Source: Agrocybe praecox (Eukaryota; Basidiomycota; Agaricomycetes; Agaricales; Agrocybaceae). From it: 64,000 bases of DNA. Shown piece after piece: positions 8,740-56,674 of the stretch. Position 1 is the first letter of the stretch, and every line of letters starts with the position of its first letter. The DNA is taken from contig OZ024846.1 in assembly GCA_964017145.1 (NCBI GenBank), positions 1,488,001-1,552,000 on the forward strand. The letters are read 5' to 3'. Both the position numbers and the translations under genes were made by a program. Under the pieces are notes generated by a model. It was given only the letters and a program-made list of their open reading frames with translations. It made no database searches and was not told the origin of the DNA.

Positions 8740-9069
8740 AAGCGGATAGGAAAGATAGTATGTCAAGGTATGCGGCAAGGCTATGTAGTCAGATATATTA
8801 GGTGGGGTGATTTTGTATTACCTTTCAATGCTTGGACAGTCGATAACATGCTATGTTTCTCTTACAATAACATGATTTTGTGTTCCATCAATTTCTATTA
8901 GTTAGTAAGAAAGCTTCTTGATCCGCAACCACCACATGCACAGCCACCGCAGTACTAGATACTCTGGCCCCTCGACACGTAGTAAGGCATCGTAGAGCGA
9001 GAATTACATTACTTTAAACGCGCTGTTATACACGCAAACACATGAATACAAACTCACCCAACAATAAAA

Positions 9070-10524
9070 ATGGCACCCCCCCCGGGTAACGGGAAATCAG
9101 GTCCCAACACAAGAAGCCATGACGCCCAAATCGCGACCAAACGAGATGCTATTACACACCTCAAGTCGCTGACAATCCTGGGAGAAGATGACAACCACGA
9201 GACCGTGCGAGGGATAGCAATTGGACTGAGGAGATTTGCGGGAATTATTAAACCTGCCATGGGACCTCTGGACATTAGAAGGACAATGTCGGCACTGGCT
9301 CTACTTTTAGACTCGCTGCCCGGCACCACAGTATCAACGGCCGATCAGTTGAAGGAGACAACGGTTAAGGCGATAGAGGAGGCTAAGGAGGAGCTGAAGA
9401 AGACCGTACAGGAAGAAATGGAGAAGATGCGAACTATTGCCGAGGCCACCAATGCCAAGGTGAACGAGAACTTCGCCGGATGGCAAAACCCACCCCCACA
9501 CCTCCCTCCAAAACTGACCTACAGTAGCATAGCCGCAGGCGCGATATCGGCAGATGCCCGGCTCGTAGCTCAGAGAGCTATCCAAGATCGACAAGTTCTA
9601 CTCAAGATAGAAGGTACAGACGGGGTGATTCGGCACGAGATGGACATTCAGGAGACGAAGAAAGCCATTCAAGAGGAGATCGACAAGTTGGAAGGAGCAC
9701 ACAAGATACGACTCGTTCAAAAAACAAGAGAAAGGGGTATACTATTGGAAATGGCTTCCAAGGAAGGAGCCGCCTGGCTGCGCGACGCCATCAAGCAAGG
9801 ACATCTGTCCCAGGTTCTGGGCACCACAGTGAAGGACAGGCAGCACCACGTATTGGTCAAATTTGTACCCATCACTTTTAACGAGGATATGGAAATACAA
9901 GACGTACTCGACGACAACAATATTGACCCTCAAATGTTTATGAAAGCACGATGGCTCAAACCTAAGCATCGAAGGCGCCCCAAGCAAAGAAGTGGACACA
10001 TGGTATTCATATTTAACAACAGAGACCAAGCTAACGAGGTTCGCATTAGGGGCATAATTATCCACTCCCAACGACGACAAGTAGAGCGCATGAAAGATGA
10101 ACCCACACGCTGCCTCAAGTGCCACAAGTATGGCCATATAGCAAGGATATGCGAAGAGAAGGACGAAACGTGCGGAACATGTGGTATCAAAGGCCATCGC
10201 ACCGACGCATGTCAAGACAAATCCAAGACCTATTGCGTCTCATGCAAAAAAGACGACCACAGCAGCTGGGACAGGGCTTGCCCCACCTTCATTCGGAAGT
10301 GCGAGGAATACGACAGGAAACACCCCGAGAACACCCTCCCCTATTTCCCATCGACTGAACCGTGGACATGGACACCCAGCAACGGCCCCGAAATCACAAC
10401 CAGGCCATTATCACAACGCGCAAGGAAAGTGGAGTTAAAGCAGAAACGAACCAACGGATCATCCTCAACAGAAAAGAGTGCCGAAGAGACAGAAAACAGC
10501 GGTGACCCTACAGATTCTCAATGA
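9070..10524 (+). CDS. LINE family 1 ORF1, gag-like nucleic-acid-binding protein (484 aa)
   Basis: Probably binds the LINE RNA to form the ribonucleoprotein used in target-primed reverse transcription. The N-terminal third is charged and predicted helical, with an acidic/lysine-rich stretch around residues 98-125 (EEAKEELKKTVQEEMEK). The central part has no recognised motif. Residues about 347-405 hold three zinc knuckles: CLKCHKYGHIARIC, CGTCGIKGHRTDAC and CVSCKKDDHSSWDRAC (the last is CX2CX4HX5C). The tail is basic and Ser/Thr-rich. The frame is uninterrupted. Its TGA (10522-10524) overlaps the ATG of ORF2 (10521-10523) in the tetranucleotide ATGA, which suggests termination-reinitiation. 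The start at 9070 follows a short leader and is the first ATG after the element boundary that opens this frame. Confidence 0.9.
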   Translation: MAPPPGNGKSGPNTRSHDAQIATKRDAITHLKSLTILGEDDNHETVRGIAIGLRRFAGIIKPAMGPLDIRRTMSALALLLDSLPGTTVSTADQLKETTVKAIEEAKEELKKTVQEEMEKMRTIAEATNAKVNENFAGWQNPPPHLPPKLTYSSIAAGAISADARLVAQRAIQDRQVLLKIEGTDGVIRHEMDIQETKKAIQEEIDKLEGAHKIRLVQKTRERGILLEMASKEGAAWLRDAIKQGHLSQVLGTTVKDRQHHVLVKFVPITFNEDMEIQDVLDDNNIDPQMFMKARWLKPKHRRRPKQRSGHMVFIFNNRDQANEVRIRGIIIHSQRRQVERMKDEPTRCLKCHKYGHIARICEEKDETCGTCGIKGHRTDACQDKSKTYCVSCKKDDHSSWDRACPTFIRKCEEYDRKHPENTLPYFPSTEPWTWTPSNGPEITTRPLSQRARKVELKQKRTNGSSSTEKSAEETENSGDPTDSQ

Positions 10525-13500
10525 ATGACCCATCTGACGAATTCACGCAGGACACTTCAAGGCACCTAAGGATTCTACAGGCCAACCTCTGCCACTCCGA
10601 CCCAGCGCATCTACACCTTCTAAACGACAAAGCGGCACACGAATGGGACATACTAGCAATACAAGAACCACACACAACTTACTTCCAGTCCATCCGCACA
10701 CCTAACGGTTTTTGACAAATCTATCCAGATAGCAAACTTCGACAAAGAGAAAAGGCCAGATCTGCGATATGGGTCAACTCCGCTATCAGCACCAACTCCT
10801 GGAAAGCGATTGACATCCCGGGAACTGTCGACATCACAGCCGTACAACTGGAAGGTGAATACGGTGTATTGACTATATTCAATATCTACAACAGCTGCAC
10901 CGACAACAAAGCCGAACGCGCGCTAGACCGGTACCTCGACACACACAAAAATGAAATATTCGGACAAGGCAAAAATGTGATTTGGTGCGGCGACTTCAAT
11001 CGCCATCACCCGCTATGGGACGACGATGCAGACGACCGGTTGTTCACCTCTAATGCGATGGAAGCTTCCCTACGACTCATCCAGCTCCTAGCCAAATGGG
11101 ACATGTCAATGCTCCTGCCCAAAGGGATCCCAACACTGCAACATTGGGTGACGAACAAGTACTCTAGACCCGACAATGTATTCGGGACGAAGGAGCTTAT
11201 GGATCAAGTGGTCAAATGCGACACTCTTCCCGAACGACGACCAGTCAAGACAGACCACATCCCAATTGCGCTAATTCTCGATATCTCAAAAACACCAGCA
11301 CCAACCACACCAATCAAAAACTTCCGAATGACTGACTGGACAGCATTCCGAGAAGAGCTTGACAGAAGAATCGAAAAAGCACCGGTGTGGACGGATATCC
11401 ATGATGAAAACGAGTTCAATAGGCAAGTTGAGACACTAACAACCATAATTCAGGAAACCATCGAAGCAAAGGTGCCGCTCAGCAAGCCCAACTCTCTATC
11501 GAAAAGATGGTGGACGAAGGAGCTTGACCAGATGAAGAAGGAGGGTAACCGACTAAGTAGAACCTCATACAAGTTCAGAGCCCTTCCCGACCACCACTCA
11601 CACCATGAATACAAGGAACATAGAAAGATTTTCGCAGACGCCATAACTAGAGCTAAGAGACAGCATTGGGAAGATTTTCTCGAAGAAGCGACCGAAAGAG
11701 AAATGCGGATTGCAAACAAGTTCATAAAAGAGCCAGTCGGCGATGGAGGTCGACCCAGGATACCCACTCTCAAAGTCAGCACACCAGAAGGCCAGAAGGA
11801 GGTGTCCTCCAACGAGGAGAAGGCCAGAGCTATCGCCACATCTTTCTTCCCGCCAAAACCTGCAGATTCGAACATACCTAGAGACCCTCAATATCCGCCC
11901 CCACTGAAGGCCTCCTTGCCCATCACCCAGATGCGGGTGGCAGCACATGCGAAATCATTATCACCATGGAAGGCCCCAGGCCTAGACGGTATCTCCAACT
12001 CGGTCATAAGAGAATGTGCTGACGAATTATCCCCCCATCTAGCTCGAATATACACAGCAGCCATCGAACTCAACCTATATCACCAATCATGGAGAGACTC
12101 TATCACATGCGTCCTCAAGAAGCCAGGCAAGCCCGACTACCAGGTACCTAAAGCCTACAGGCCGATTGCCCTGCTATCAACCATGGCGAAACTGCTCTCC
12201 GCAATTGTCGCTGACAACATGTCTCGATTGATCGAACAATACAAATTACTACCAAACAACCACTTCGGAGGAAGACCAGGCCGCACAACCACCGATGCGC
12301 TACACTACCTCATACACCGGATAAAGTCAGCATGGCGTAACGGCAAAGTGGTATCAGTCCTATTCCTCGACGTCGAAGGCGCATTTCCGAATGCAGTTAC
12401 CGACCGTGTACTTCACAACCTACGAAAACGAAGAATACCTGAACCATACGTGCAGATGATTGACAGCATGCTCAAGAACAGAAGGACAAAGCTTCGATTC
12501 GATGATTTTCTTTCTGAATTTCGGGCCATAGATAATGGTATAGGGCAGGGTTGCCCACTTTCAATGATCATTTATATTCTCTATAATGCAGACTTACTAA
12601 CCATACCAGAAGGTGACGACGAAGATGCGATTGGATATGTTGACGACGCAATTCTCATAGCTATCGGCAACTCATTTCAAGAGACAGTCGACAAACTCAA
12701 AGACATGATGGTTCGTGAGGGAGGGGGCTTCCAATGGTCCTCGGAACACAACTCACGTTTCAAAATCACCAAAGTCGCAGTCATGCACATGTCTCAAGGA
12801 ACTGGTCGAAAAGAAGACGGCACCAAAGCCAAGTTACACGAGCTAGCACCACCTCTGATCCTACGTGGCACTACCATAGAGGCCGTCAAGACATACAAGT
12901 ACCTCGGCGTACTAATTGACCCAGAACTGCGCTGGAAAGCCCAAACTATGCGTGCGGTCGAAAAAGCGACCAAATGGGTAATGCTATTCAAAAGACTGAC
13001 AAAACCTTCTACAGGAGTACGACTCAAGCTGATGCGACAGCTGTACCTTGCAGTTGGGGTGCCAAAAATGACCTACACATTAGATGTCTGGTACACCCCT
13101 CCCCACAAGAGAGTTGGCAAGAAAAGGAACAGTGGATCAGTGACCGCTTTGCGACTAATGACAAAAATTCAAAGAATGGCAACCATTGCAATAACGGGAG
13201 CATTACGCTCGACAGCAACAGACACCCTAGATGCACACGCCAACATCCCACCTACCGCAGTGATGTTGCGATATATATGTAGACGAGCACTAATCCGACT
13301 CTGTACAATAGATAAATCACACCCCCTGCATTACCACACAGCTAACCCAACAAAGATACGACCAAAACCTCAGCCCCATGAAGCACCAATCACCAAATTG
13401 AGAAGAATATTCGACATTGACCCAGCAAAGGTCGAAAAGATAGGCAGGCCCACCTACAACATCACGGACGGCAGGATGTTCAACACCACAATTCACGCAA

Positions 13501-14516
13501 CAAGGGAGGATTCCCTGGACGCAGAGGCACGAGATGACGCATCAACGAAGATCTTCACAGACGGCTCAGGTTTTCAAGGAGGAGCAGGAGCAGCAGCTGT
13601 CATCTACATGAATGGATCCAACAACCCTACTGGCACGCTCAGGTGCCATCTCGGAAAACTAACAGATCACTCCACCTATGAGGGCGAGGCGGTAGGTCTG
13701 ATACTGGCGGTATGGCTAATACGAATCTATTGCAAGGACCGGATAGGCAACGAAGCCATCAGCATCTACTCTGATTGTCAGAGCGCGATCAACACAGTAT
13801 ATGACATGAAACCGGGGCCTGGTCAGTATCTGTTTAACGAATTTCATAAACTTATTGCCCCTTTCAAAAACACAGGGAATAATGTCTCCAAATTCACGAT
13901 CAACTGGATCTCAGCTCACAGTGAGGTCAACGGCAACGAGCAAGTCGATAAAGAAGCAAAGGAGGCCGCATTAGGCAACTCAACACCAAAAATCTTCCTA
14001 CCTCCTATACTCAGACGACCACTCCTGTTAGGCAAATCGGCACTCCTCCAAAAAGCGAAGGAAGCACGTACAGTAGAATGGAAGGCTCTATGGGAAACCT
14101 CCCCTCGAAAGAAAAGGATGAAGACCATAGACAAGGACTTCCCACACTCGAAATTTAGCAAAATCGCCAATGACCTAACAAGAAAGCAGGCCAGCATACT
14201 AATCCAGATGCGCACTGGACACCTACCACTTAATGACTACCTGTTCAAAAGAAAACTCGCACCCTCACCAAATTGCACTATGTGCCCGGACGGAAGGAGA
14301 GAAACGCTAGAACACATACTGAAGGAATGCCCGGCATACAGAAAACAAAGAACAAAGTTGCGAAAAGCTATGCAGGGAAGAAGCCTTGCCACCCACTCGG
14401 CACTACTCTCAGACCCAAAACGAGCCAAAATGATAGTCAACTTCATTGAAGAAACCAAAAGATGGACCACAGGATACATGAGGGGTCCCACCCAAAGCTT
14501 CGTAGACACCCACTAA
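10521..14516 (+). pseudogene. LINE family 1 ORF2: AP-endonuclease, reverse transcriptase, RNase H, with a single internal TGA
   Basis: One frame runs 1331 codons with a single stop, TGA at 10713-10715 (codon 65, after RTPNGF). Domains in order: AP-type endonuclease (ILQANLCHSD; AIQEPHT; WCGDFNRHHPLW; KTDHIPIAL), reverse transcriptase (FLDVEGAF; GIGQGCPLS; catalytic YVDD at 12636-12647, about residue 706), RNase H (FTDGSG; YEGEAVGL; YSDCQSA; SAHSEVNGNEQVDKEAK), then a C-terminal zinc-binding motif CTMCPDGRRETLEHILKEC. All catalytic residues I can check are present. The stop could be a CGA-to-TGA change, since every domain after it stays open. Reading on from the ATG at 10869 gives 1215 codons but lacks the start of the endonuclease. 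Probably recently inactivated, though complementation in trans cannot be excluded. Confidence 0.92.
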
Positions 14517-21066: not shown

Positions 21067-22091
21067 CCCTTGAATTTTTTTAAATCTTTATTTTTGGTAC
21101 ATATTTTGTTATTTCTGTCGTTATTTTCTGTCGTTATTTTATGTTGATTTCTGTTAATATATTTTTCCATCGTTTGAAAACATCGCCGAGTGATATAAAC
21201 ATATATATAATGAGTTTCATTTATTTGTCATACTCTTGGCACATTCTTTTGACATGAGGATCATGATAGATTACAAGTTGGAATAGGGAGGCGTACTATA
21301 TTTTCTTAAGTTGTTATCAATCTTATCTAATCAGAACGAGCAACAGGCAAACATTTATCAGGATCGGATTCTAAGAGAAACCCATTTAGAGGCGTTATTT
21401 GGTCAGAAATAGATGCTATAATGTGTAAAGATAGTGTATTCCACAAGGCAATATACATAATACCATCTATGGACGGATAAACATGTTCACTAAATGTTTA
21501 TCTACCTAATCTAATCAGATAGCACCAAACCAGGCAAACCGAGGTTCTCAAAATAGCCCTAGATTTAATATCTAATCTAATCTGAGAGCCTAGACAGAGC
21601 CGGTCGGCTGACTCATCCGACATAGCCGTAGCACTCGCTTATTTCAAAAATAGCCCAGTGCCCGTTACTATATTTAGATAATAATATTTACAGCGTCATC
21701 CAACTACATCCTCACCAATCCATCCCTCCCCTCCTCCCAATAGACGCGCAGAGGACGCTAGAAATTACAATAAATATATATATCCCTTATGGCGAAGTTT
21801 CCCACGCCAAATGCGCCCCGAACCCATCAAACTGGCCTGCTCGACGTCCAAGTATGCCATTTCGTGCATTTGGTGCGGATGTGGCTGTGTTGGCCTGTGC
21901 CCGCCTTCCTGCCAATGCTGTATATCCCTCTCCCGCCCCCTGAACAGCACATCAGCCTCGGAATGACCCATCCCTGCTCTCTAAAGGCCATTTCCTGCCT
22001 ATACATGCCACCCACGGCACGAAAAGCCACACAATATTGGTGTTTCCATATTAGGCAGGTAGGCAACTGCCCACAGGCATTTATGAGGGCA
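21067..22091. repeat. 3' flank of gene G, shared with a second copy at 37.25-38.17 kb (repeat E)
   Basis: Despite holding no gene, this stretch aligns with 37250-38150: TATCTAATCTAATCTGA, AATCCATCCCTCCCCTCCT, AAGTTTCCCACGC and GGTAGGCAACTGCC occur in the same order. Gene G and its 1.1 kb 3' flank therefore travel together as a repeat. It ends at 22091 with GGCATTTATGAGGGCA, where the 6.9 kb unit begins; the rest of its terminus resumes at 28984. Confidence 0.65.
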
Positions 22092-22271
22092 TGTAACCCA
22101 CTGGGAGATAATGTCCCACGGGAATGACGGGAGAACGTGATGCCCAGAAAACATATCAGCCGCCGCGTAAATTCCCAAAATGTCTTGTACGCCGTCATAG
22201 TTACTAAATATAGTTGCTCTTTTCTGTATTCTTCTCAAAAATTGTTCTATTTACCTTCAAGAGCCTCAACC

Positions 22272-24527
22272 ATGCAGTTAGCAGCTCTGCATGAAATCCT
22301 TCAGCATTACCCTCTCCTCCGCTGCTTGGACCTCAAGAAGGTCATCAAACTCCTTTGCTACTGTGCCCTTGCCCAGTCCTCAATTGAAGCCCAAACCTCA
22401 AACATTCGCATCCCACCAGACACCATATCAGTCTACATACAAATACTTCTAGGCGAGGTCATCAAAGAGGATGTACTTGTAGTACGCGAGCTGTGGTCTG
22501 CTCTCAAGTGGGACGTTTGGGAGATGTCTCTTTCGGGTGATGACTCTCAAGGGGTTGTTCCTACCTCTGAGGAGATCAGTACCTTCAACATGTATGCCTT
22601 GCTCTTAAATACATGTGAGTGAATAATTTGATGTCATTTTGTGTCAATCTTATAATTTACTACAGCCTACCGACACCTCTATCCGCCAACTCGTGTTTGT
22701 CTCGGGAATGTACAAATTTTAGGGATTCAAACAACATATCTACCCTCACAGAGCCTTATACGTACAAGGCTGCATTATTCACGCTATGCCAAGGTACTCT
22801 ACCTATATATTCAACCTCATTATACTGCCAAAGTAAGTCTGTTTGCCAGTGGTTGCGATTTTTAAATTCATATACTCAATATTTCTATGTGCTCAGACTG
22901 TCACAGACGCTACTACCATAATTATATAGTTCATGAGCGCTCAAACACACGCCAGTATTATGGGGGCGTTCCAGAAGTCATACAAGCTGCAGAACACTTT
23001 TTTATTGACCGCCCTCTCCTTGAGCTCTTTGTAATATGCATGGTTTTTGGCTGGTACATTTTCTCATGATACATCTACACATTGCAGTCTTGGACTCTTG
23101 ATGTTACCCTTCTTTCCAGGCTGTCGGCATTAAATCTTGCCAAAATATTCAACAATTCTCTTGCTAATCTCCATGCCGACATTCTTAACAACCCTCTTGC
23201 CTTTTCTCCTGCCACTCGAGCACAGTTTATGAAGAAATGTCCTGATGGCTGGCTTCCGTCAGCTCTTCAGCCTCAGGATACACATGTACTGAATTCTTTC
23301 TTTATATATAGTGTTCTTCTTGACTGTGCCAAAAGAAATGAGGCGTTGGTCTTGGAGCATAACGCACACATGCAAAAAGATCGGCTCAAGTCTGCACTTC
23401 AAAGACGTAATGAACAAACCAAAGGCACTGGTCAGGAGGAGTATACCCATGCATGTTCAGCATGTTTTTTAGTTTCAGAGGATAAGGACGGGAACAAAAG
23501 TAAGTGTACTTATACTACACGTCGTATATTTATTTATTTGAGACCACCTCATTTCAGCTAAAATCCACCCAGTGGTATGTGACGGCGTATCTATTGGACA
23601 CCCATGTTGCATGGTGCATGATTGCCTGCTACCTCTTGTCCATAATCGGTCTTTATTTTGCTCAAAGCACATGCCCAAGCGATTTGAATGTGCAGTTAAA
23701 GACTGCACAGCACGCATCGAAGCTGGGTTCCGAACATGTTCTCTCCCTGAACATCGTTTGATCGAAGAGAATTATTACCAGCAGGGAAAATCGATCTTTC
23801 AACTGCGTGCTCGACTCAAGAAGGCCACTGGTAATCATCATAACACGGACAACATTGAGGACCCTCTATGTGACGGTAAAAACAAAGATGGCAATCGCAA
23901 ACTAAAGGCCACATTTTCCGAGAGGCGGACTCATAATGAGCAATTTATTGTGAGGCCATGCGGGATTATCATCACACGGACTACATTATATGGGTCTGAA
24001 GCTATACAAGAAGTTAAAGTACGTGCACCTGATTTGATCTTAAATAAAAAGTTTCCTAGCTAATTTCAAACATTATCTCTCTTCAATAGAACTTCACCAA
24101 GGCCACGTTTCCTACACCGCAATCAACACCTGAGGTCTACGTGTTCGATAACAACTGTAGGCTTCATGCACATCTAGCAAAGCAAAAGGACACCTATTTC
24201 AAGGATACAGCAATGCCCATCAATGTTTTTCATTTCAAATCCAAGCACAAGGTTACGGATTACCACTGCCAAATACATTGCAATCCTGCAGCGTTTCCGG
24301 AACTAATGGATGGCGACAAGTGGAAAATCAACACCTCAGTTTGCGAGCAAACCAACAGCTGGCTGGTGGGTTACCAAGCTATTCTACGTGATATGGAGGG
24401 TACCAGGTTCTATTTTTATCTTGATGAAATGGTCAAACGTAAAAACTGTTTCAAACGGCAGGATCTTGAAGAGAAGGGCTCGTGCCCTTGGAACATTCCA
24501 GTTGATACGCTTTTCCCTTCAAATTAA
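22272..24527 (+). CDS. CxC5/CxC6 cysteine-cluster protein associated with KDZ transposons; candidate DDE transposase
   Basis: Exons 22272-22614, 22666 to about 22830, about 22895-23053, 23120-23499, 23558-24018 and 24090-24527. The N-terminal exon (MQLAALHEILQHYPLL) and the CxC5-like block (LFTLCQGTLPIYSTSLYC, then CHRRYYHNY) precede the CxC6-like block (VVCDGVSIGHPCCMVHDC, FCSKH, CAVKDCTARIE, TCSLPEHR). Candidate catalytic acids: D in VCDGVSIG, D in VFDNNCRLHAHL, E in CEQTNSWL, in the order and spacing of a DDE transposase; this is my inference. Within exon 2 the reading moves from frame LYPPTRVCL to frame CTNFRDSNNISTL near 22690-22705, so a 1-nt indel is likely and the copy may be inactive. 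It starts about 180 bp inside the left inverted repeat. The ATG at 22272 is preferred over 22137 on family resemblance. Confidence 0.7.
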
Positions 24528-24663
24528 TTTCTTGTGGTGTAAAACATTTAATTTTTCTTCTTTGTACTACAGTTTAGAATAATACCAGTTTTGGGCCCAG
24601 TAATGACAAAACTTGGTCGAAGCTCAGTGGCAGTGCTCATAGCTCAACCCTTTCTCTGATCTT

Positions 24664-25640
24664 CCAACCTCATTATCTTCGCCAGTTCCACGTCAAATTT
24701 GAAGTTCAAGGGCTTGTTAGAGAGCGAACCGAGTATAGAACCGTCACTAACAATCGTTTGCGCCGTAAAAGACGCCTGGAAGGATAGGAAACGACCGAAA
24801 CATCATGCTTCTGTCCTACTCATCCACAATAACCCAAACCTCCTCATCTTCGCCAAACCCTCATCAAATTCAATGTTCAAGGGCTCGTTCGAGAGCGAAC
24901 GTAGTACAAAACTGTTACCCATAATCGTTCGCACCGTTGAAAACACGTGGAAGGATAGAAAACGACCGAAACGTCGTGCTGCTGTCATGCTCACACCCAT
25001 TAATCCAAACCTCGTCATCTTCGCCAATTCTGGGCCAAATTTAACGTTCAAGGGCTCGATAGAGAGCTAACACGGTACGCAATCGTCACCCTCAATCGTT
25101 CGCGCCGAATGGTAGGCCTGGAAGGATAGAAAACAACCGAAATGTCGTGCTGCTGTCCTGCTCACACCCATTACTCCAAACCTCCTCATCTTCGCCAATT
25201 CTGGGCCAAATTTAACGTTCAAGGGCTCGTTCGAGAGCGAACGTAGTACAAAACTGTTACCCATAATCGTTCGCACCGTTGAAAACACGTGGAAGGATAG
25301 AAAACGACCGAAACGTCGTGCTGCTGTCCTGCTCACCCCCATTACTCCAAACCTCCTCATCTTTGCCAATTTCGCGTCAAATTCGACCTTCAAGGGCTCG
25401 TTCGAGAGCGAATGGAGTACGCAGCCGTTAACCCAATCGTTCGCGCCGTTAAAAACGCCTGGAGGGGTAGCAAACGACCAAAACATTGTTCTGCTGTCCT
25501 GCTCACCCCCATTAACACCAACCTTTGCATCTTCACCAATTCTGGTTCGATTTTTACGTTCAAGGGCTCATTGGAGAGCGAACAAAGTACAGAACCGGCG
25601 CCCACAATTGTTCACGTCGTAAAAATTGTCTGGAAGGCTC
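24664..25640. repeat. 171-bp tandem array, about 5.7 units
   Basis: The anchor TTCAAGGGCTCGTT recurs at 24705, 24876, 25047, 25218, 25389 and 25559: spacing 171, 171, 171, 171, 170. Because 171 is a multiple of three, frames stay open over several units on both strands (for instance KGSFESERSTKLLPIIVRT on the plus strand). The unit is close to nucleosome-repeat length, like many satellites. The array fills the gap between the two convergent genes of the 6.9 kb unit. Coding use is unproven. Confidence 0.9.
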
Positions 25641-25659
25641 AGACACAGCCAGGTGCGTA

Positions 25660-25910
25660 GGTTTGGGTTGGGTGTGCTATGCGACAAAAATGTTCAGCAA
25701 CTGGCTACGTTTGCGAACACCTTGACCGTCTTTACAAAAGGATGCCATGGCTCCAGCGCCTCTTTGCGAAAAGCATCTTTCCCACTGCGGCATTCAACTT
25801 TGGGCCTAATGTATGGACGGTCAAACACCACAATACAAAGACCCAGTGCTCTATGCCGAAGTTTGTCGCCTGCGACCTCTTCGGTGGCAAATGGGCCTCA
25901 ATTTATTAAG
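25660..25910 (+). pseudogene. Fragment of an Agaricomycete multicopy protein, possibly 2OG-dioxygenase-like
   Basis: One frame reads LYKRMPWLQRLFAKSIFP, then AAFNFGPNVWTVKHHNTK, and stops at 25909. I recall FN(F/L)GPNVWTF(R/K)HRD as a conserved block of a large Agaricomycete family whose HxD pattern suggests an Fe(II)/2-oxoglutarate fold; here the HRD position reads HHN, so a metal ligand would be lost, and the rest of the domain is absent. Its place inside a KDZ-like unit is notable because fungal TET/JBP dioxygenases are known partners of KDZ transposons, but whether this block belongs to that family I cannot tell. Confidence 0.35.
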
Positions 25911-26006
25911 AAAAATGTCTAGTTTTGTAAATTATAAAGCTCGTATATAATTAAGGGGGGGTTTTTGAAAGAAAAGAAATAGAAATATAACAATCAGAAG
26001 AAAAGG

Positions 26007-28573
26007 TTAAACCTGTGAGAGACCAAGCCTCTTGCAAATATGACTGAATTTGCATGAACGATGGTCGTGCAAAAAATGATCAGCACCTCACTGCCCTTCA
26101 TTTGCTAAGTTAAATCTTTCATCGTGGTTATTAGTCTTGTCAGTGCTAGTTGATAGCTTGTAAATTACCACCGTATGCAGTATTAGAATGGGAAGTGACG
26201 TACTCAGAGTGTAGATCGCAGTCAACAACAACCAGTGATTCATCAGGCTGAACGTAACCTGTTGGATATGATTAGAGTGTGCTATGCTGCTGAAATATGA
26301 AGAACCTGCCTTGGAAGTTACAAATTGTGATGAAACCCTCTGAGTGCTGGAAGACAAAGTGTTCAAATGCTTGAAGGGACTCGGCTGCAAAGACATCAAA
26401 GTCGGGAAGGTATGCAGAGCCTTGGGTTGCGATGGTCGTAAAATGCACACCAGAAGCATGCTCTTGTGCTACCTCATGCCAAAGATATTGTCGAGGGCTG
26501 ACCAATGGGTCCTCTACGCAGAATGCAAGATAAGTTTTGGCAAACCTAACAGCTATAAAGGCAGCTATAAGAAGTTGGGTAAATGCTTGAATAATTAAGA
26601 ATAATTACTTACGGTGCACCTCAACACCTTTCTGAGTAGCTAGCTCTTGAAACTTCTGAAAGAGTAGCGAGCACTGCATGAATCGCTCAGCATCAAGAGC
26701 AACGGCCCTTGATTTAGAGCAGACGTTAAACGGCCAATCATACGGAAGAAACAACTTTTTGACGACCAGCCCAGCAGCAGTGAAGTCGTTGTTCCAAACC
26801 TGTAAAAAAAAAAAGGGTGCTTAACCGTAGTTCAAAGAGAAATTAAAACAAGTTGAAGACACGTACTCGATGAATTGTACAATACTGTCCTGTAGATGCT
26901 GTGCTAGTTTCAACAAAACATTTTTTGACTTCAACAATTTCGAAGTCAAACAAATTGTTGAGCTGAATATCCTTGAGCTCAATAAAGGCGAAGGTTGATT
27001 TTTCTTGAATAGCGGTAGCTTTGTCAACCTCTAAATTCAGAGTGAATATCTATTACTTAAATGCCTGGACGGTGGTACATACCTTGTTTTAATTCAACCC
27101 ATGTTCGACAGACTGGCTTAGTGTCAATGAATTGATAATAGTCACCGACTCCTTTATCACAAGCAGATTTGTACACAGAGAAATACCGGTAGGCTGTGGA
27201 GTTGTTTTCTATATTTGGAAAGACTTTGGGAAAGGTTTCCTTGAATGTGGTGTCGCCTTTGAGCAGTGCTTTGATTATCTTGTCAAATCCGTTCTTCAAT
27301 GTAGACGTAGAGAGGTCAACAAGAGTACGAGCAACTTCATGACTTGAAATGCTAGAAGCAGGAGGTGCAGGCGCAAAACCATGGGCGGTTGGAACTGATG
27401 ACGGCACTGTCTGTGTGAAGCTGTGCGTGCGTGCTTTTTTACAAGGATGCTCGATGTTAGGTGCATTTGGTTGGAGTGAAAACCTGCCAATAATTTCAGC
27501 TAGGCCTTTGAAATGTTCAACCGAAATTTGAGAGTCACGCACAACGAGGGTCTGACCATACTTGACGGTTATTGGAATTGTGAGGTCTGATAAAATAACC
27601 CATTGTGGGGGGGTTGTATAAAGGTCGTAGTAGGCAATTGCAGATTCAGGAATTTTGGATTCGTGAAGAAGAGTAGCGAACGTAAGCTCATTTTGCAGAA
27701 TAAAACGGCTGCCTTTGGGGAACTCGACATGTGGTTTGGTTCTCCAAAGAGATGGATTAGTGTCAACCTATGATAAGAGAAAACATTGGTAAACTGCACG
27801 ATAGGAAAAAAAAAAAGACGTACTGAGTGATAGAATTGAAGAGTGATGACCTTTGCTTCATCTTCTAGAACTTGTGCTTCCAAAGCAGCACATTTTCTGG
27901 CTGCCTCTTGTTTGGCTTGCGGATCTCTATATCCATAATCTTTGTTGAGGGGGCGCCCGTAGATCTGGCGAATTTTGATGGGGGTTTTCTCATGTTCAGA
28001 GCTGGAGTTTGACGTGGGTGGGTTCTCAACGACAGCGCCAGAGCCTTCAGTGAAGTTTGAAGAGGGTGCGGTGGGCCGATAACCCCTTGATGGACTGTTG
28101 TGGGCACCTCGACAGCCACCTCTAAGGTAGCAGTGTTCTGCGCAAAGTGGATGTTCACGGCCGCAGAGCTTGTTTGCTGCTCGAGGAGTGTTCTTTGAGG
28201 CAACACAGCACCCAGGCTCTGCACAGGATAGTTGCGTGTTGGCTTGCCTTGCGGAGGTCATTAACGCATGTTTAATCCTAAGATCCTCAGGTATCTTCTC
28301 TTCGGGGTGCTTAATATTGCTATGGAAGTGATATTTATAGCATTTTTTGCACTGAGGATTGCAGCACGTAAGAAAACATCAGTATAATTCCAAATAAGAA
28401 ATACGCACCTGCTGCATCCATCTACCATAGTTCGTGATGTCGTTACTGCCTTTGCACAGCTCAAATCGCATCACCATGTCTTGACCACGGCAGAAAGGAC
28501 AAATTTTCACCAGTTCACCATCATTTGGGCGAGGGTAAACGGGCTCTATCTTGTCCACTGAAGGAGAACTCAT
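26007..28573 (-). pseudogene. Alpha-type protein kinase gene, eight exons, nonsense codon in the last exon
   Basis: Exons on the minus strand: 28573-28409, 28351-27824, 27767-27083, 27030-26867, 26799-26613, 26552-26310, 26258-26204, 26145-26007. The N-terminus has Cys pairs (CPFCRGQD; CKKCYKYH) and a cluster CGREHPLCAEHCYLRGGC, known in fungal alpha-kinase proteins. The kinase part shows LVVKKLFLPYDWP, LPDFDVFAAESLQAFEHF, then NFQG (the DIQG-type motif), VVVDCDLHS and a final HDHRSCKFSHICKRLGL, the usual zinc-binding end. The intron 26259-26309 begins GC rather than GT. TGA at 26088-26090 interrupts the last exon, where family context favours a tryptophan; frame and motif continue afterwards to TAA at 26007-26009. 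It could still make a protein lacking the last 26 residues, including zinc ligands. Confidence 0.7.
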
Positions 28574-28983
28574 GGTGGTTGAAGAAAGGAGCAGGATGAA
28601 AATTTTCTGCGCTCATTGCTCGTATAGGGTGGGTGTCATAAAAGATATTCCGATGTAAATAGTATACAAGGCTGTAAAGAATAAAACTACTGTATACAAA
28701 CGTCAGTAAAGCTAAAAGCATGATGAACAGGAAAACTCACATATAGCACTATGTAATGGAGGCCAGCAACGCGCAGCAGAGCAGGGAACCAGAAATAAGA
28801 TAAAAAAAGCTGGGGCGGCGGAGGGCAATAGGAGAGTCGGGGGACAATCTAGGAAGTCTGAGGCGTGGCTGATGTGCAGTATTTGTCTGAAGCTTCGGTT
28901 TTATTTGTCACGGAAGCTCTCAGCGACGGATCATTCTCCCATCATTCTTGTGGGACATTCTTTCCCAGTTGATTTCAACTTCT

Positions 28984-29047
28984 GGCATTTATGAGGGCAG
29001 TTAGGCAACTGCCTATATATCATATATAATATTAGCAGCTATGGCTG
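28984..29047. repeat. Repeat E terminus, split off by the 6.9 kb unit
   Basis: GGCATTTATGAGGGCA (second copy) continues into TTAGGCAACTGCCTATATAT and TTAGCAGCTATGGCTG, then abuts LINE 3' untranslated sequence. Same terminus as at 7717 and 38171. Confidence 0.7.
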
Positions 29048-30496
29048 CAAACCCGGCTCACAGTCCACACCTCACCCAGTCCACAGTCCACGCCCCACCC
29101 AGTCTGCAGTCCCCTCATGTTCCAAGTCACATTGCCGCTTCCGCTTAGCCCGAGCGCCCCCGAAGGGTCAGGCCGAAGCCCACTTTTTTTTTTTTTTTTT
29201 TTAAAAAAAATCAAAGGACCGAAGTCCCATTTGTATTCCAGTGCGCAATTACAGTATGGTCCCTACGTTACATACAAAGGCATGCTAAGCAAGATTTAAT
29301 ACTACTCTACGTCAGCGAGGGCAAGCGTTTAAGCATTGGTGGCAGGGCATCAAACCCAGTCCACAGTCCACACCCCGCCCATTCCACAGTCCACGCCCCA
29401 CCCAGTCCGCAGTCCCCTCACGTTCCAAGTCACATCGCCGCTTCTGCTTAGCCCAAGTGCCCCCAAAGGGTCAGGCCAAAGCCCACAAACCCAGGTACCC
29501 ACTGAAGGGCCCCGAACACCCCCGCAGGGTCAGGACGAATCCCACAAGTCCGAGTACTGAGGCGTGCACCATTGTAATGGCAAAGAATCCGAAGTCCAAG
29601 TAGAACACATTCCACAGTCCAAGAAGAACATATCCTGCAGGCCAAGCCTCAGCCCAGCCTGCTTATCTAACCCCTGCGGGTCGCTTGAACGCAAACACTG
29701 AGTCGTTGTTGTCCAAGAACTTGATCAGATGCACCAGGAGTTCCGGTGACCGACCGTCTTGTTCGCGTGTATGTTTTGTACACACTTGCAATATATCTGC
29801 GCGCGTCTGCAGGTGGTGACCACATTCACATGCATGGAACTCTTGAATGTTGAAGCGCTCAGCCGGGTGATCTCCGACAGGTTCGACTTGAGCCCGACTG
29901 ATGTCGTTGGCCTCTTGGTGTATCCTCTATTTCAGTTTCGAAGGAACCTGAATGAAGTCTACTTTGCATGCGGCGTCTTCCTCTAGCCACAGTTGAAGAG
30001 CTCAACATATGGCCAAAGAATGTCCTTGACCACTATGGAGGGTAGAATCCAAAGCTTGTTTAGCCGAAGCCATTGAGTCAGTGAATATGACGATTTGTTC
30101 ACAATCATCCTGTTGGGTGGCAAGAACAATCACTGAGCGGATGGCAAAGAGTTCTGCATCAGGCGCAGTCACTTGTCCGGCTGGGTGCAATACGGTATGA
30201 ATCTGTTCATGCCTCCGGTATAATAAGGCAGTCGAAACCGCCTGTCGTTGTACGTCGTTCGGCACCGAAGCGTCGACCATGCAATACACCATTGTTTCTT
30301 GGTCTTGTGCTTCATGGAGCACTTGATTAAGACCGACACGAACTGCGTCCGCCTGCTCATTGTCAGTGGGACACAATTTGAATGTGAAACAGTCGTCGAA
30401 TAAATCCAACAGCCTATTTCCAGGTCGAGCCTCTGTCGCGACAGGCAAGAAAGACTCTGTGAGTTCAGGGAGATGACGGTCTATCTCCATGAGCAC
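29048..30496 (-). mobile_element. LINE family 2, 5'-truncated copy, landed in another LINE 3' UTR
   Basis: 29048-29183 is minus-strand 3' UTR of one LINE. At 29184 a run of about 19 T (a poly-A tail on the minus strand) starts a second copy: 3' UTR to about 29700, then the C-terminal part of ORF2 up to 30496, where it is truncated at MEIDRHLPELTESF. The RNase H region is recognisable (FTDSMASAKQALD; VYCMVDASVPND) with a stop near 30000. A poly-A end and 5' truncation are typical of target-primed reverse transcription. Confidence 0.8.
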
Positions 30497-41739: not shown

Positions 41740-42908
41740 GTGTAATTTGGCGTCTGTATTGCTGCGACGCAGGGTGCGACCTATGAAATAGCTTGGGCAT
41801 GACACATATATTTCAATGAGTATTAGTAATTAAAGCGGGGCAGGGCGCAACAAACGAAGCATTAGGTAGGCATTTTTAACATACACAATCATGGTGCCGG
41901 GCACGACGTTGGACGAATGAAACTTGAAGCATATTTTGAATGTGTATTACCGTGGTGCGGCCTGACGGCACAGTAGATGAGGTATGAAGCATATATATTA
42001 TTGTGTATTAGAACGTCACAGGGTGTGATGGATGAAGCTTGAGGCCTTGAGGAGTAAGGCATATATATAACGTGCATTAATACGGCGCAGGATGCAACGG
42101 GTAAAGCATATTTATACATTTAACGGCGTGTATTAATCCGATGCCGCTGCACAGGGTGCAATGAGTGAAGTATATATATTTTAACGTGTGTTGACACGGC
42201 GCATGGGTGAAGCATGAAGCATAGCACATATATTTTAATGTGTGTTAACACGGCGCAGAACACGATAGATGAGACATGATGTATGAAGCTTGAAGCATGG
42301 TGCATACATTTTTATGTGTGTTAACGCGGCGCAGAGCGCGATAGATGAAGCATAAGGTGTAGCGCGCTGCGCATATATTTTAACGTGTGTTAACACGGCG
42401 CAAGGTTGTGATGGGTGAGGTATGAAGCACGGCGCATATATTTTACGTGTATTAACATGGCGCAAAGCGCGATGGATGAAGCATGAGACATGGCGCATAT
42501 ATTTTTAACGTGTATTGACACGGCGCAAGGGCGCGATGGGTGAGGCATAAAGCATGGCGCATATATTTTATGTGTATTACTATTAACACGGCGCAAGGGC
42601 GCTATGGGTGAGGCATAAGGCATGGCACATATATTTTTAACGTGTATTACCACGGCGCAGAGCGCGACGGATGAAGCATGAGGCATGGTGCATATATTTT
42701 TAACATGTATTTACACGGCGCAAGGGCGCGATGGGTGAGGCACGAAGCACGGCGCATATATTTTTAACGTGTATTAGCACGGCGCAGAGCGCGACAGATG
42801 AAGCATAAGGCATGGCGCATATATTTTTAACGTGTATTAACACGGCACAAGGGTGCGATGGGTGAGGCATGAAGCATGGCGCATATATTTTTATGTGTAT
42901 TACCACGG
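41740..42908. repeat. Minisatellite, unit about 60 bp, main array
   Basis: Repeated unit of the form ATATATTTTTAACGTGTATT + ARCACGGCGCARRGCGCGAT + GRRTGARGCATRARGCATGG. About 16-18 units, regular from 42150 on and degenerate near 41740-42100. It continues at 44601 after LTR-X copy 2. Short frames across it are repeat artefacts. Confidence 0.88.
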
Positions 42909-44600
42909 TGAAAGACGGTTTTTCTGTTGGTGATTTATGCTTTGACAATCACACAAAACACAACCAACAACAAAATCCAGAGAAAGAGTGGGCTAGACCT
43001 AGATAAGACGACTCTCTCCCTGTGAGTTCGGGGGTGGGAATAAAATTACTTCGTTCCTAAGAATGGTTTGTTAGTGTAAAGATCGTATAGGTTTAAGGGT
43101 TTGTGATGAGCTTTTGTCCTAGACAAAAGTTTGAGATTGAATAAGAGAGTAGAAATCAAAGTGAACGTATTCCACTTTGAAATCAGAGTAAACGTCGAAA
43201 AAGAAGAGAATAATCGAAGCTTGGAACGTTTTCCAAGCTATAGAATTGACTGCCAAGACTGAGAATTGACTAAATGAATACTGAACTGAAAAATAGCTGC
43301 TTGAATCGGTACAATTGTCCTATGATAGGTGTGTACTTCTTGTCCTCTACTTTACAGGATCTAACTAGCTTTTATACTACAAATCCTGCAAGGCATGAGT
43401 AATCGATGGTAAGTAAGGTTGAAACGAATGACAAAGAATAAGGGGTTAAATGAATAAGCTGACTGAGCGAGTGAGTCAGGAATGACAAAGGAATGGGTTG
43501 AAACGATGGAAAAGAAGGAGAAAACTGTCCATCGCTCAATGAAATGACTAAGAAATGAATAAGAATGAGTAATAAATAAAAAAGTTGACTAATGCGCAGC
43601 AAAGAATGACCAAGCACATCTTCTTGAATGATAAATCGATCATAGTTGACTTGACGATTAGTGAAATCAATGGATGGAAGGAATCGAGCTATTTCCAGCT
43701 GATAGATTGCTATATTTGGCGGATATAACCTTAGCGTAGCCGCGTTGTTGATGTATCAGTTCCCGTGACTCATAGTGACTCGTGATAAGCATGTGACATC
43801 GAATCATGTGTTTGGAATGATGGTTGCACAGCCGCTTGATGGCCTAGGCTTTGCATGATGTCATCGAAGTCTTTTAATAGAGTAGATGGGATGCGATGGA
43901 TTTAGATAAGTAGTGAATATGCTGTGCCGTTGTGTGATGTAAGCGTAGGCATATCTTATCTTCTGCATGATGCTGAGGGACACTTGTGATCGTGGGATAG
44001 CAATACGGGGTCTTGTGAATAATGCCGGTGCTGATTTCCTGGTGGTCGATACTGCGAAAACTATAATTCCTCGTTCATAATGCACGATTTCCTCGAGGCA
44101 AATGATTTTTGATATGTCATCCGGCTGAATTCTGTACGTAAAACTGACGGTGTCTCCTTCTTGAAAAATGTGATCCTCCGTATAATGTGTCGCTAGCCAA
44201 TATTCACAATTTTCGTTTGCATCCAAAACTCCGGCAATTTGAATAAACGGATATATTGATGCTTTGTTGATTTTCTGAGGTCCAGAAGAATTGACGACAT
44301 CCTTGGATTGTTGAACAAAGGAAACAAGGGAAGTGGAAGACATTTGGTAGATTTGAACACGTAAGACAATGAGCGTTGAGAGGAAGGAGTGATTTGTCTT
44401 GGATCGTGGCGACGGTTTCATGACTTTAGCCTAGACTGAATAGATTTCCGAAGAATTGGTGCCTTAATGTTGCGATAGAGCTGTGATGGGAAATTAAAAT
44501 GGAGAATACAAAAAAGGAAATATTGAAATTTAAAAATAAACGAATGATCTCTTATGCAATTTCAGGTTCGTTCATGTTCAATCAAATATGACGCATGGCA
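42909..44600 (-). mobile_element. LTR-X copy 2, complete, in the minisatellite
   Basis: Minus-strand TG...CA element of 1692 bp, from TGCCATGCGTCATATTTGAT at 44600 to CCGTCTTTCA at 42909. ACGG flanks both sides (42905-42908, 44601-44604), a 4-bp duplication created within the minisatellite unit. Contains ORF-X, TATAAAAG near 43380, three hairpins and no gag/pol. Size and ends fit a solo LTR. Confidence 0.75.
43861..44343 (-). CDS. ORF-X copy 2 (160 aa), unknown protein of LTR-X
   Basis: MSSTSLVSFVQQSKDVVNSS to SIKRLR, the same length as copies 1 and 3. In this copy the frame is also open upstream for 26 codons (MKPSPRSKTNHSFLST), giving 186 codons. Against copy 1 the protein differs at about 13 positions, mostly conservative, and against copy 3 at about 10. 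Lies upstream of the LTR TATA box. Confidence 0.5.
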   Translation of the reverse strand: MSSTSLVSFVQQSKDVVNSSGPQKINKASIYPFIQIAGVLDANENCEYWLATHYTEDHIFQEGDTVSFTYRIQPDDISKIICLEEIVHYERGIIVFAVSTTRKSAPALFTRPRIAIPRSQVSLSIMQKIRYAYAYITQRHSIFTTYLNPSHPIYSIKRLR

Positions 44601-44935
44601 ACGGCGCAAGGGCGCGATGGGTGAGGCATGAGGCATGAGGCATGGTGAATATATTTTAACCTGTATTAACACGGCGCAGAGCGCGATGGATGAAGCATGA
44701 AGCAAATATTTTGACGTGTGTTGACACGGCACAAGAGTGCGAAGGTTGAAGCTTGAAGCTTGAAGTTTTGAAGCATTGAGGCATGGCGCATATATTTTAA
44801 CGTGTATTAACACGGTGCAGAGAGCGATGGGTAAAGCATGAATCATGGCGCATATATATTAACATGGGGCAGGGCGTGAAGCTTGAAGCTTGAAGTTTTG
44901 ATGCAACATAATGCATAAGGCATGCAAGGAGATGA
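44601..44935. repeat. Minisatellite, right part
   Basis: About five units of the same 60-bp repeat as 41740-42908 resume directly after LTR-X copy 2, then decay into GAAGCTTGAAGCTTGAAG runs. Confidence 0.85.
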
Positions 44936-52668: not shown

Positions 52669-54357
52669 TGTCATGCGTCATATTTGATTGAACATGAACG
52701 AACCTGAAATTGCATAAGAGATCATTCGTTTATTTTTAAATTTCAATATTTCCTTTTTTGTATTCTCCATTTTAATTTCCCATCACGGCTCTATCGCAAC
52801 ATTAAGGCACCAATTCTTCGGAAATCTATTCAGTCTAGGCTAAAGTCATGAAACCGTCGCCACGATCCAAGACAAATCACTCCTTCCTCTCAACGTTCAT
52901 CGTCTTACGTGTTCAAATCTACCAAATGTCTTCCACTTCCCTTGTTTCCTTTGTTCAACAATCCAAGGATGTCGTCAATTCTTCCGGACCTCGAAAAATC
53001 AATAAAGCTTCAATATATCCATTCATTCAAATTGCCGGAGTTTTTGATGCGAGCGAAAATTGCGAAAATTGGTTAGCGACACATTACACGGAGGATCATA
53101 TTTTTCAAGAAGGAGATACCGTCAGTTTCACATACAGAATTCAGCCGGACGACACACCCAAAATCATTCGCCTTGAGGAAATCGTGCATTATGAACGAGG
53201 AATCATAGTTTTCGCAGTATCGACAACCAGAAGTTCGGCACCAGCATTATTCACAAGGCCACGCATTGCTATTCCACGATCACAAGTGTCCCTCAGCATC
53301 ACACAGAAGATAAGATATGCCTACGCTTACATCATACAACGGCACAGCATATTCACCACTTATCTAAATCCGTCGCATCCCATCTATTCCATCAAAAGAC
53401 TTCGATGACATCATGCAAAGCCCAGGCCATCAAGCGGCTGTGCAACCATCATTCCAAACACATGATTCGATGTCACATGCTTATCACGAGTCACTATGAG
53501 TCACAGGAACTGATACATCAACAACGCGGCTACGCTAAGGTTACATTCGCCAAATATAGCAATCCATCAGCTGGAAATAGCTCGATTCCTTCCATCCGTC
53601 GATTTCACTAATCGTCAAGTCAACTATGATCGATTTATCATTCAAGAAGATGTGCTTGGTCATTCTTTGCTGCGCATTAGTCAACTTTTTTATTTATTAC
53701 TCATTCTTATTCATTTCTTAGTCATTTCATCGAGCGATGGACAGTTTTCTCCTTCTTTTCCATCGTTTCAGCCCATTCCTTTGTCATTCCTGACTCACTT
53801 GCTCAGTCAGCCTATTCATTTAACCCCTTATTCTTTGTCATTCGTTTTAACCTTACTTGTCATCGATTACTCATGCCTTGCAGGATTTGTAGTATAAAAG
53901 CTAGTTAGATCCTGTAAAGTAGACAAGAAGTACACCCCTATCATAGGACAATTGTACCGATTCAAGCAGTTATCTTTCAGTTCAGTATTCATTCAGTCAA
54001 TCCTCAGTCTCGGCAGTCAATTCTATAGCTTGGAAAACGTTCCAAGCTTCGATTATTCTCTTCTTTTTCGACGTTTGCTCTGATTTCAAAGTGGAACACG
54101 TTCACTTTGATTTCTACTCTCTTATTCAATCTCAAACTTTTGTCTAGGACAAAAGCTCATCACAAACCTTTAAACCTATTCGATCTTTACACTAACAAAC
54201 CTTTCTTAGGAACGAAGTAACTTTATTCCCACCCCCGAACTCACAGGGAGAGAGTCGTCTTATCTAGGTCTAGCCCACTCTTTCTCTGGATTTTGTTGTT
54301 GGTTGTGTTTTGTGTGATTGGCAAAGCATAAATCATCGACAGAAAAATCGTCTTTCA
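52669..54357 (+). mobile_element. LTR-X copy 3, complete (1689 bp)
   Basis: TGTCATGCGTCATATTTGAT ... CGTCTTTCA. Flanks do not match (GCCGT left, CCGCC right): the left flank is LINE 3' UTR and the right flank is LINE RT, so this copy looks recombined between two insertions. TATAAAAG near 53894. Hairpins: AGCTTGGAA/TTCCAAGCT (54027-54048), TCAAAGTG/CACTTTGA (54086-54110) and CTTTTGTC/GACAAAAG (54137-54155). Confidence 0.75.
52926..53408 (+). CDS. ORF-X copy 3 (160 aa), unknown protein of LTR-X
   Basis: MSSTSLVSFVQQSKDVVNSS to SIKRLR, again 160 codons, with the 26-codon upstream extension open as in copy 2. Substitutions relative to copy 2 include Q/R, Y/N, IS/TP and M/T, but no indel or stop. 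A second, 81-codon frame (53652-53897, MLGHSLLRISQLFYLLL...) lies just before the TATA box in all copies; being Leu/Ser/Pro-rich with a hydrophobic start, it may be only a by-product. Confidence 0.5.
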   Translation: MSSTSLVSFVQQSKDVVNSSGPRKINKASIYPFIQIAGVFDASENCENWLATHYTEDHIFQEGDTVSFTYRIQPDDTPKIIRLEEIVHYERGIIVFAVSTTRSSAPALFTRPRIAIPRSQVSLSITQKIRYAYAYIIQRHSIFTTYLNPSHPIYSIKRLR

Positions 54358-54360
54358 CCG

Positions 54361-56282: not shown

Positions 56283-56652
56283 TAAGCTATGGGGAGGGGG
56301 TTAGTACGATCGCGGAGATTCTGTCGAAGACGACGTACCTCTGCATATTTGCCATCGATCCAAGCATGATCGAAGCGGTTGGTCCAGAACTTGCATTTAC
56401 ACGAGTTCGCGGCATGGGCACCCTTGCAATTGATGCAGTAAGCCGTGTGAGGGCACGGCTGGCCAGCAGGGGTTGGTTCGAGTGGTGGGTTTGCGTTGGC
56501 ATTCCCTTTGCAACACTTGGTGACATCATGGTGTTCGTTAGCCTTGTGTGGGCCCATGCAGTGTGGGCAAGACGCAGCACGTTGCCTGCATCCTTTGTCG
56601 GAGTGGCCCCATCGCCAGCATCGCTGGCAGAGGGGGACACCGGTGTGTGTGG

Positions 56653-56674
56653 TTTTTTAAAAAAAAAAATCAAA
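56653..56674 (-). mobile_element. 22-nt LINE 3' stub with 13-bp target duplication
   Basis: CCGGTGTGTGTGG occurs at 56640-56652 and 56675-56687. Between them, on the minus strand, lies TTTGATTTTTTTTTTAAAAA, the last bases of the family 2 LINE plus A tail. An extremely 5'-truncated insertion. Confidence 0.8.

Follow-up and report, generated by a model that had tools for sequence, protein, structure and literature searches.

A cut-and-paste DNA transposon of Agrocybe praecox with a predicted CxC5/CxC6 DDE transposase and a probably co-inherited alpha-kinase gene

Do a CxC5/CxC6 (CxC5/6) gene and an alpha-kinase gene that lie between inverted ends form one mobile element, and if so, which protein moves it and what is the kinase doing there? 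This question is raised by a locus of Agrocybe praecox (assembly GCA_964017145.1) inside the window, the 64,000-nucleotide stretch that was analysed (contig OZ024846.1, positions 1,488,001-1,552,000, forward strand; G000:C7:1488001-1552000). The genome searched comprised 59.2 Mb in 347 contigs. As a whole, it is highly probable that the locus is a cut-and-paste transposon with a CxC5/6 DDE transposase and a co-inherited alpha-kinase. This answer is based on the observed ends, target-site duplications (TSDs), empty sites, recurrence in the genome, gene pairing, conservation of the DDE residues, the predicted fold of a homologue and congruent trees. The element, its terminal inverted repeats (TIRs) and its flanks are as follows.

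22085..28984, plus strand: whole element, 6,900 bp, with termini 5'-GAGGGCATG...CAACTTCTG-3'; boundaries set from the relatives C8a, C4a, C3 and C12 and from the flanks
22077..22084, unstranded: left TSD GCATTTAT, exact 8-bp match
28985..28992, unstranded: right TSD GCATTTAT, exact 8-bp match
22092..22135, plus strand: left TIR arm, 44 nt, 82% complementary to the right arm
28934..28977, minus strand: right TIR arm, 44 nt, 82% complementary to the left arm
21559..22075, plus strand: host repeat flanking the insertion on the left (longest match); of 7 uninterrupted copies, the five best are 81.6-90.6% identical and the remaining two 68%
28984..29048, plus strand: host repeat terminus right of the insertion, matches of 54-65 bp in 6 of 7 copies and 44 bp in the seventh

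The initial annotation had described inverted ends of about 45 bp, and the two arms bear this out. Local alignment of the first 80 against the last 80 nt of the element gave a score of 29, which none of 2000 mononucleotide shuffles reached (maximum 14) and which 2 of 2000 random window pairs reached. The 16-bp direct repeat noted earlier is exact (22076-22091 and 28984-28999), but it is not the TSD. It is composed of one base (the last G of the element, which equals the flank), the 8-bp TSD, and seven bases, GAGGGCA, common to the target and the left end of the element. A 16-bp TSD was rejected and the length set at 8 bp because the relatives place GAGGGCA within the element. TSDs were called by a script in which the ends were set as motif positions and every repeat length from 2 to 15 was tested, and in the window only 8 bp fits.

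The claim that a host repeat closes up when the unit is removed also held. Seven other copies of the host repeat terminus (up to 3 mismatches) are all contiguous at the insertion point, and the joined window flanks align over the junction in 7/7 of these uninterrupted copies; the empty sites are thus other host-repeat copies in the same genome, not the same locus in another strain. GAGGGCA is exact in 2/7 copies and differs at one or two bases in the other five, so its presence beside the TSD can be native to the target. The target match lies at 28993-28999 and has no equivalent beside the other insertions; it may be chance or a target preference. The window unit is a TIR cut-and-paste DNA transposon inserted in a host repeat.

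Related ends occur elsewhere in the genome. With the left end as query, ten further matches were found (six left ends and four right ends), and the left ends at the 6 other places are 82-91% identical to that of the window; the right-end 200 bp used as a DNA query over the genome matched itself only. Four further loci have both ends and exact 8-bp TSDs, and one has a left end only. The kinase-bearing elements compared were therefore those of the window (C7), C8a, C12, C4a, C3 and C4b (L019). They are deeply diverged from one another and span 5.7-6.9 kb, and all five with both ends showed an exact 8-bp TSD and no other length. The matches to the left end include C8a, a long element (6,505 bp) with the same two genes as that of the window, as well as the 1,389-bp copies and the two fragments described next. 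In C4b only the left end was identified; this copy is rearranged on the right and matches C12 at 87-91% identity over its main matching parts. Three 1,389-bp deletion derivatives of a C8a-type element (L013, L014 and L015, on C8, C3 and C1) are 99.5-99.8% mutually identical, which suggests recent movement or spread; one has an exact TSD, one has a TSD with one mismatch, and one has none. C310 and C45, left-end fragments with a common left flank, were excluded from the element counts.

A second CxC5/6 transposon lineage (L024 3780-9908, L011 448-6399, L026 302-6290, L025 and L021) showed no kinase match and has a second region with simple repeats. Its 8-bp TSD is exact in 3/5 elements, has one mismatch in 1/5 and is missing in 1/5; L022, L023, L027 and L028, whose two ends were not assigned, are left out of this count. 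In both lineages the termini start with GAG and end with CTG (TTG in the C8a family).

The first gene of the window element shows the following features.

22272..24527, plus strand: CxC5/6 gene, putative DDE transposase; exons 22272-22614, 22666-22832, 22897-23053, 23120-23499, 23558-24018 and 24090-24527; CxC6 E=1.1e-23
22693..22710, plus strand: frameshifting 4-bp deletion in exon 2, in the CxC5 region, as compared with the C310 fragment and C8a
23581..23583, plus strand: codon of the predicted first catalytic Asp (CDG), where the Pfam CxC6 domain begins
24147..24149, plus strand: codon of the predicted second catalytic Asp (FDNNC)
24345..24347, plus strand: codon of the predicted catalytic Glu (CEQTN)

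The gene has six exons and five introns, like the open relatives C8a and C12. As its frame is shifted, the window copy cannot now make its own transposase. The CxC5/6 domains were reportedly defined in the study of Iyer et al. 2014. Sixty homologues were found, named hypothetical, uncharacterized, predicted or CxC-cluster proteins, the closest of them from mushroom-forming fungi by name; the DDE residues were present in 44 of 54 homologues. In the structure predicted for a Mycena homologue there is an RNase H-like DDE core, and all 50 VIA matches listed for this model were transposases or integrases. The likeness to the IS256-family ISCth4 and to TnsB, IstA and retroviral integrases is one of fold only, at 6-12% sequence identity. 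Foldseek alone gave no match to the model at E <= 0.001, the transposase profile matched two PDB sequences (E 0.14 and 0.46), neither a transposase, and the CxC5/6 proteins had no Pfam match to IS256 or Mutator-like families. Given this core in the homologue model, in which the first catalytic Asp coincides with the CxC6 start, the CxC5/6 product is most likely the transposase itself. This suggests that the domain pair which Pfam treats as a KDZ accessory is itself a transposase, and if so, the sixty homologues would be transposases as well.

The CxC5/6 gene (plus strand) and the alpha-kinase gene (minus strand) converge in the window element. The initial annotation had said so and the spliced models agree, with the difference that the CxC5/6 frame is shifted in exon 2. 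Across the genome, Pfam matched CxC6 15 times and Alpha_kinase 12 times. Six CxC6 matches form the lineage of the window, and a separate search recovered the same six. In 5/6 an Alpha_kinase match lies on the opposite strand 1.1-2.1 kb downstream. In the window the kinase exon alone scored 20.8 bits against the cut-off of 21.3, and the spliced protein passes it, so the pairing is 6/6, with the kinase in the same place and orientation each time. All six CxC5/6 genes of the lineage lie in such units with the kinases in the same units, and the five loci beyond the window have related ends; the earlier proposal of one mobile element with which the kinase travels is thereby sustained, and none of the outcomes that the initial annotation had named as refuting was seen. 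Among the kinase matches listed, none lies within 10 kb of any of the other nine CxC6 matches (38 kb is the shortest distance on a shared contig), and tblastn with pieces of the window kinase gave no match in the kinase-free loci L021-L028 or L011. A search with the kinase N-terminal exon recovered the window, C8a, C12, a place near C4b and one orphan element-type N-terminus (G000:C74:21531-22130), on a contig with no CxC6 match.

Maximum-likelihood trees of five transposases and five kinases gave one topology, ((C7,C8a),(C12,(C4a,C3))), with supports of 100/93 for the transposases and 100/100 for the kinases; such agreement is expected by chance in 1 of 15 cases, and the C8a kinase entered by its second part only. 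Since the two trees share one topology, the pair was probably co-inherited, and the kinase was probably already there when the six kinase-bearing elements last shared an ancestor. When six of the 60 proteins from other species were added to the transposase tree, they grouped with C4a and C3 (94%) and fell apart from C12 and from C7 + C8a (100%); the inner branches of the C4a/C3 group were weak (24-75%). Given this grouping, the element lineages of this one genome seem to predate several species splits, barring horizontal transfer. Many of the homologous elements are predicted to carry the kinase.

The second gene was examined at the level of its exons and motif residues.

26007..28573, minus strand: alpha-kinase gene with an open frame of 717 aa in 8 exons (28409-28573, 27824-28351, 27083-27767, 26867-27030, 26613-26799, 26310-26564, 26169-26258 and 26007-26086); Alpha_kinase E=2.5e-07
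26317..26319, minus strand: Asn codon that replaces the DxQG Asp; in the alignment, Asp in the C12, C4a and C3 kinases, Asn in C8a and one Agrocybe protein

All three spliced proteins scanned against the alpha-kinase family (PF02816) lie above the cut-off (31.4 bits in the window, 57.2 and 34.6 bits in two other copies), and the N-lobe Lys is invariant in 5/5 kinase copies. For the DxQG motif, the window and C8a have NFQG, C12 has DFQG, C4a has DFQA and C3 has DIEG. Its Gln is found in 4/5 copies (Glu in C3), as is the second Asp (Ser in C3). We take the DxQG Asp, the N-lobe Lys, the Gln and the second Asp to be the catalytic or functional residues; the window kinase retains the last three. 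What distinguishes the element kinases from PF02816 is that the window sub-lineage has exchanged the DxQG Asp for Asn, and that there are two extra N-terminal cysteine-cluster modules, which are common to the copies where that part was read, the first presumably akin to GRF-type zinc fingers. A single-sequence protein search with the C12 kinase found nothing at E <= 0.001 among 6086 candidates. A kinase profile search (E <= 1) gave 4 matches, two Agrocybe pediades proteins and two unnamed fragments; for the one match with serial locus tags, no kinase-CxC5/6 adjacency was found by tag. Against PDB sequences the best match of the window kinase was a protein kinase at E 0.078.

The alternative that survives best is that the kinase is dead freight, an old and decaying capture with no function for the element. 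The loss of the DxQG Asp in the window and C8a, an apparent stop codon in the C8a kinase, and the loss of the second Asp in C3 are in its favor. Against it, the window copy keeps an open kinase frame of 717 codons in 8 exons despite its broken transposase frame. An A. pediades relative 51% identical to the window kinase has the same Asn at DxQG (likewise NFQG), which therefore looks like an inherited feature of a branch. This is tempered by one of the seven host-type matches (L029 4782-5210), which reads NIQG, with a near relative in L031 reading DIQG; loss of the Asp is thus not unique to transposon kinases. Finally, open kinase frames persist across copies only 21-43% identical, which makes neutral decay unlikely. 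On balance we consider the dead-freight explanation unlikely.

A second alternative is a non-autonomous or accessory-bearing element of the Kyakuja/Dileera/Zisupton (KDZ) type, in which CxC5/6 is a zinc accessory and a KDZ transposase encoded elsewhere acts in trans. KDZ elements resemble the present ones in being fungal DDE elements, Zisupton and Dileera make 8-bp TSDs, and Pfam names CxC5 and CxC6 as associated with KDZ transposases, an association that the initial annotation had also stated. KDZ is abundant in this genome (at least 176 matches), and one KDZ fragment shares, by eye, D-x2-C and E-x3-W-like patterns. According to PMC12730594, KDZ TSDs are 7-8 bp long and those of Zisupton likewise 8 bp, which the 8 bp found here match. 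However, among the KDZ matches listed (150 of 240 candidates scored), none lies within the six elements and the nearest is at about 26 kb; on this ground, the presence of a KDZ transposase in the unit was rejected. The Pfam KDZ transposase model had no match at E <= 10 in any of 14 CxC5/6 proteins, the gene content differs, and the CxC5/6 family has its own predicted DDE core. In hhalign of A2 against one KDZ fragment, a comparison with a single KDZ sequence, the catalytic core was not aligned. In Pleurotus ostreatus, intact KDZ genes are described as never preceded by CxC5/6 (PMC7641404). The accessory reading is thus improbable, and of the earlier KDZ association the Pfam naming stands while the role shifts, most likely, to that of transposase.

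Still less probable is that kinases were captured independently several times or that elements inserted by chance beside host kinases. The kinase evolves fast (21-43% identity between copies), and 7/12 Alpha_kinase matches lie outside these elements. Against this explanation stand the constant place and orientation in 6/6 lineage members, the shared N-terminal cysteine clusters (where read) and C-lobe, and the congruent trees with full support on the kinase side.

The weakest explanation is that a Copia-type retrotransposon carried the insert, an origin put forward for the CxC5/6 insert in P. ostreatus MSH4 from a co-localisation (PMC7641404). It hardly deserves credence, since the units here have their own TIRs and 8-bp TSDs and their flanks close to an intact host repeat.

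The MSH4 (poMSH4) insert is among the closest published counterparts. According to PMC7641404, a 6,792-bp CxC5/6 insert tied to Copia disrupts MSH4 in sporeless P. ostreatus. Like the window element, it is about 6.8 kb long, has a CxC5/6 gene and exists in several copies, and its insertion into a gene was shown to cause a phenotype. It differs in its attribution to Copia, and TIRs, TSDs and an alpha-kinase are not reported in the available text of that paper. The terms 'inverted repeat' and 'target site' are absent from its main text, so the ends of the insert were apparently not examined. In outline it resembles the kinase-free lineage here, to which its microsatellite cluster brings it nearer. 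For the insertion in the commercial sporeless oyster mushroom, a TIR transposon may offer a simpler cause than Copia.

Returning to the CxC5/6 transposon with a co-inherited kinase, we infer catalysis, TIR binding and the kinase role as follows. The transposase would consist of a helical and zinc-cluster (CxC5) N-terminal half followed by an RNase H-like core, with the CxC6 zinc cluster inserted in the core from the end of the strand that bears the first catalytic Asp. By binding the TIRs of roughly 45 bp it would cut out the 5.7-6.9 kb unit, and insertion with a stagger of 8 bp would produce the TSDs of that length. The second product would be an alpha-kinase-fold protein with two zinc-cluster-like N-terminal modules. 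As a related CxC5/6 lineage lacks the kinase, the transposon plan does not need it. Acting in trans, the kinase would most likely serve as an accessory factor and modify either the transposase or a host factor involved in chromatin or silencing. In the window sub-lineage, where the DxQG Asp became Asn, it may act as a DNA-binding pseudokinase. A wider proposal, which we offer tentatively and regard as less likely true than false, is that CxC5/6 constitutes a separate eukaryotic DDE superfamily marked by the zinc cluster within the catalytic core, GAG..(C/T)TG ends and the 8-bp TSD. In this proposal an ancient two-gene branch would use its kinase, a class of protein that the unrelated IS3EU elements of rusts have recruited too, as a working partner to control transposition or host silencing by phosphorylation, and a derived branch would have a pseudokinase regulator.

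Alpha-kinase genes on fungal transposons are not new in themselves. TET+ IS3EU elements of rusts carry them opposite the transposase, with 6-bp TSDs (PMC12730594). IS3EU elements have TA..TA ends and usually 6-bp TSDs (PMC10045372), and alpha-kinase enrichment or expansion is reported in rusts (PMC5295586, PMC4469406). The rust elements resemble the window element in their TIRs and in the opposite orientation of transposase and alpha-kinase genes (PMC12730594). They differ in their ends and TSDs, as GAG..(C/T)TG ends and 8-bp TSDs were found here, so an assignment to IS3EU fails. The TET+ families described also have a TET/JBP gene between the two genes; none was noticed here, where no TET/JBP search was made. 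The word 'CxC' is absent from the available text of PMC12730594. The CxC5/6 lineage is best held apart from both KDZ and IS3EU as a lineage of its own.

The earlier remark that the pairing was undescribed holds in part. In the literature searched (titles and abstract openings), CxC5/6 was found neither as a transposase nor paired with an alpha-kinase, and only the presence of an alpha-kinase on a transposon had precedent. Elements of this kind are known; what looks new against that literature is the CxC5/6 lineage, together with its catalytic core and its long-standing kinase partnership. It would be a second, apparently unrelated fungal transposon type with an alpha-kinase, beside IS3EU, and why fungal transposons carry alpha-kinases therefore becomes directly testable.

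Minor observations concern repeats and neighbouring sequence.

24666..25620, unstranded: 171-bp minisatellite array, 5.6 copies, between both genes of the element, from tandem-repeat analysis

The unit of this array contains a near-palindrome. Repeats with a similar core were seen by eye between the genes of the C12 copy, where Tandem Repeats Finder reported none. The right flank of the C12 element (L044, C12:342000-343500) holds, by eye, tandem copies like a WD40-repeat gene. A Pfam scan of 10 other open reading frames (ORFs) of the window matched 2, both reverse-transcriptase proteins. Two units like non-LTR (long terminal repeat) retrotransposons, each with endonuclease and reverse transcriptase, lie at 9046-14513, where RNase H and zf-RVT were also seen, and at 54263-57297; ORFs of 492 and 336 aa without a Pfam match adjoin them. 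A 63/127-bp minisatellite array of about 8 copies occupies 42208-42915, with a related shorter array at 44651-44759.

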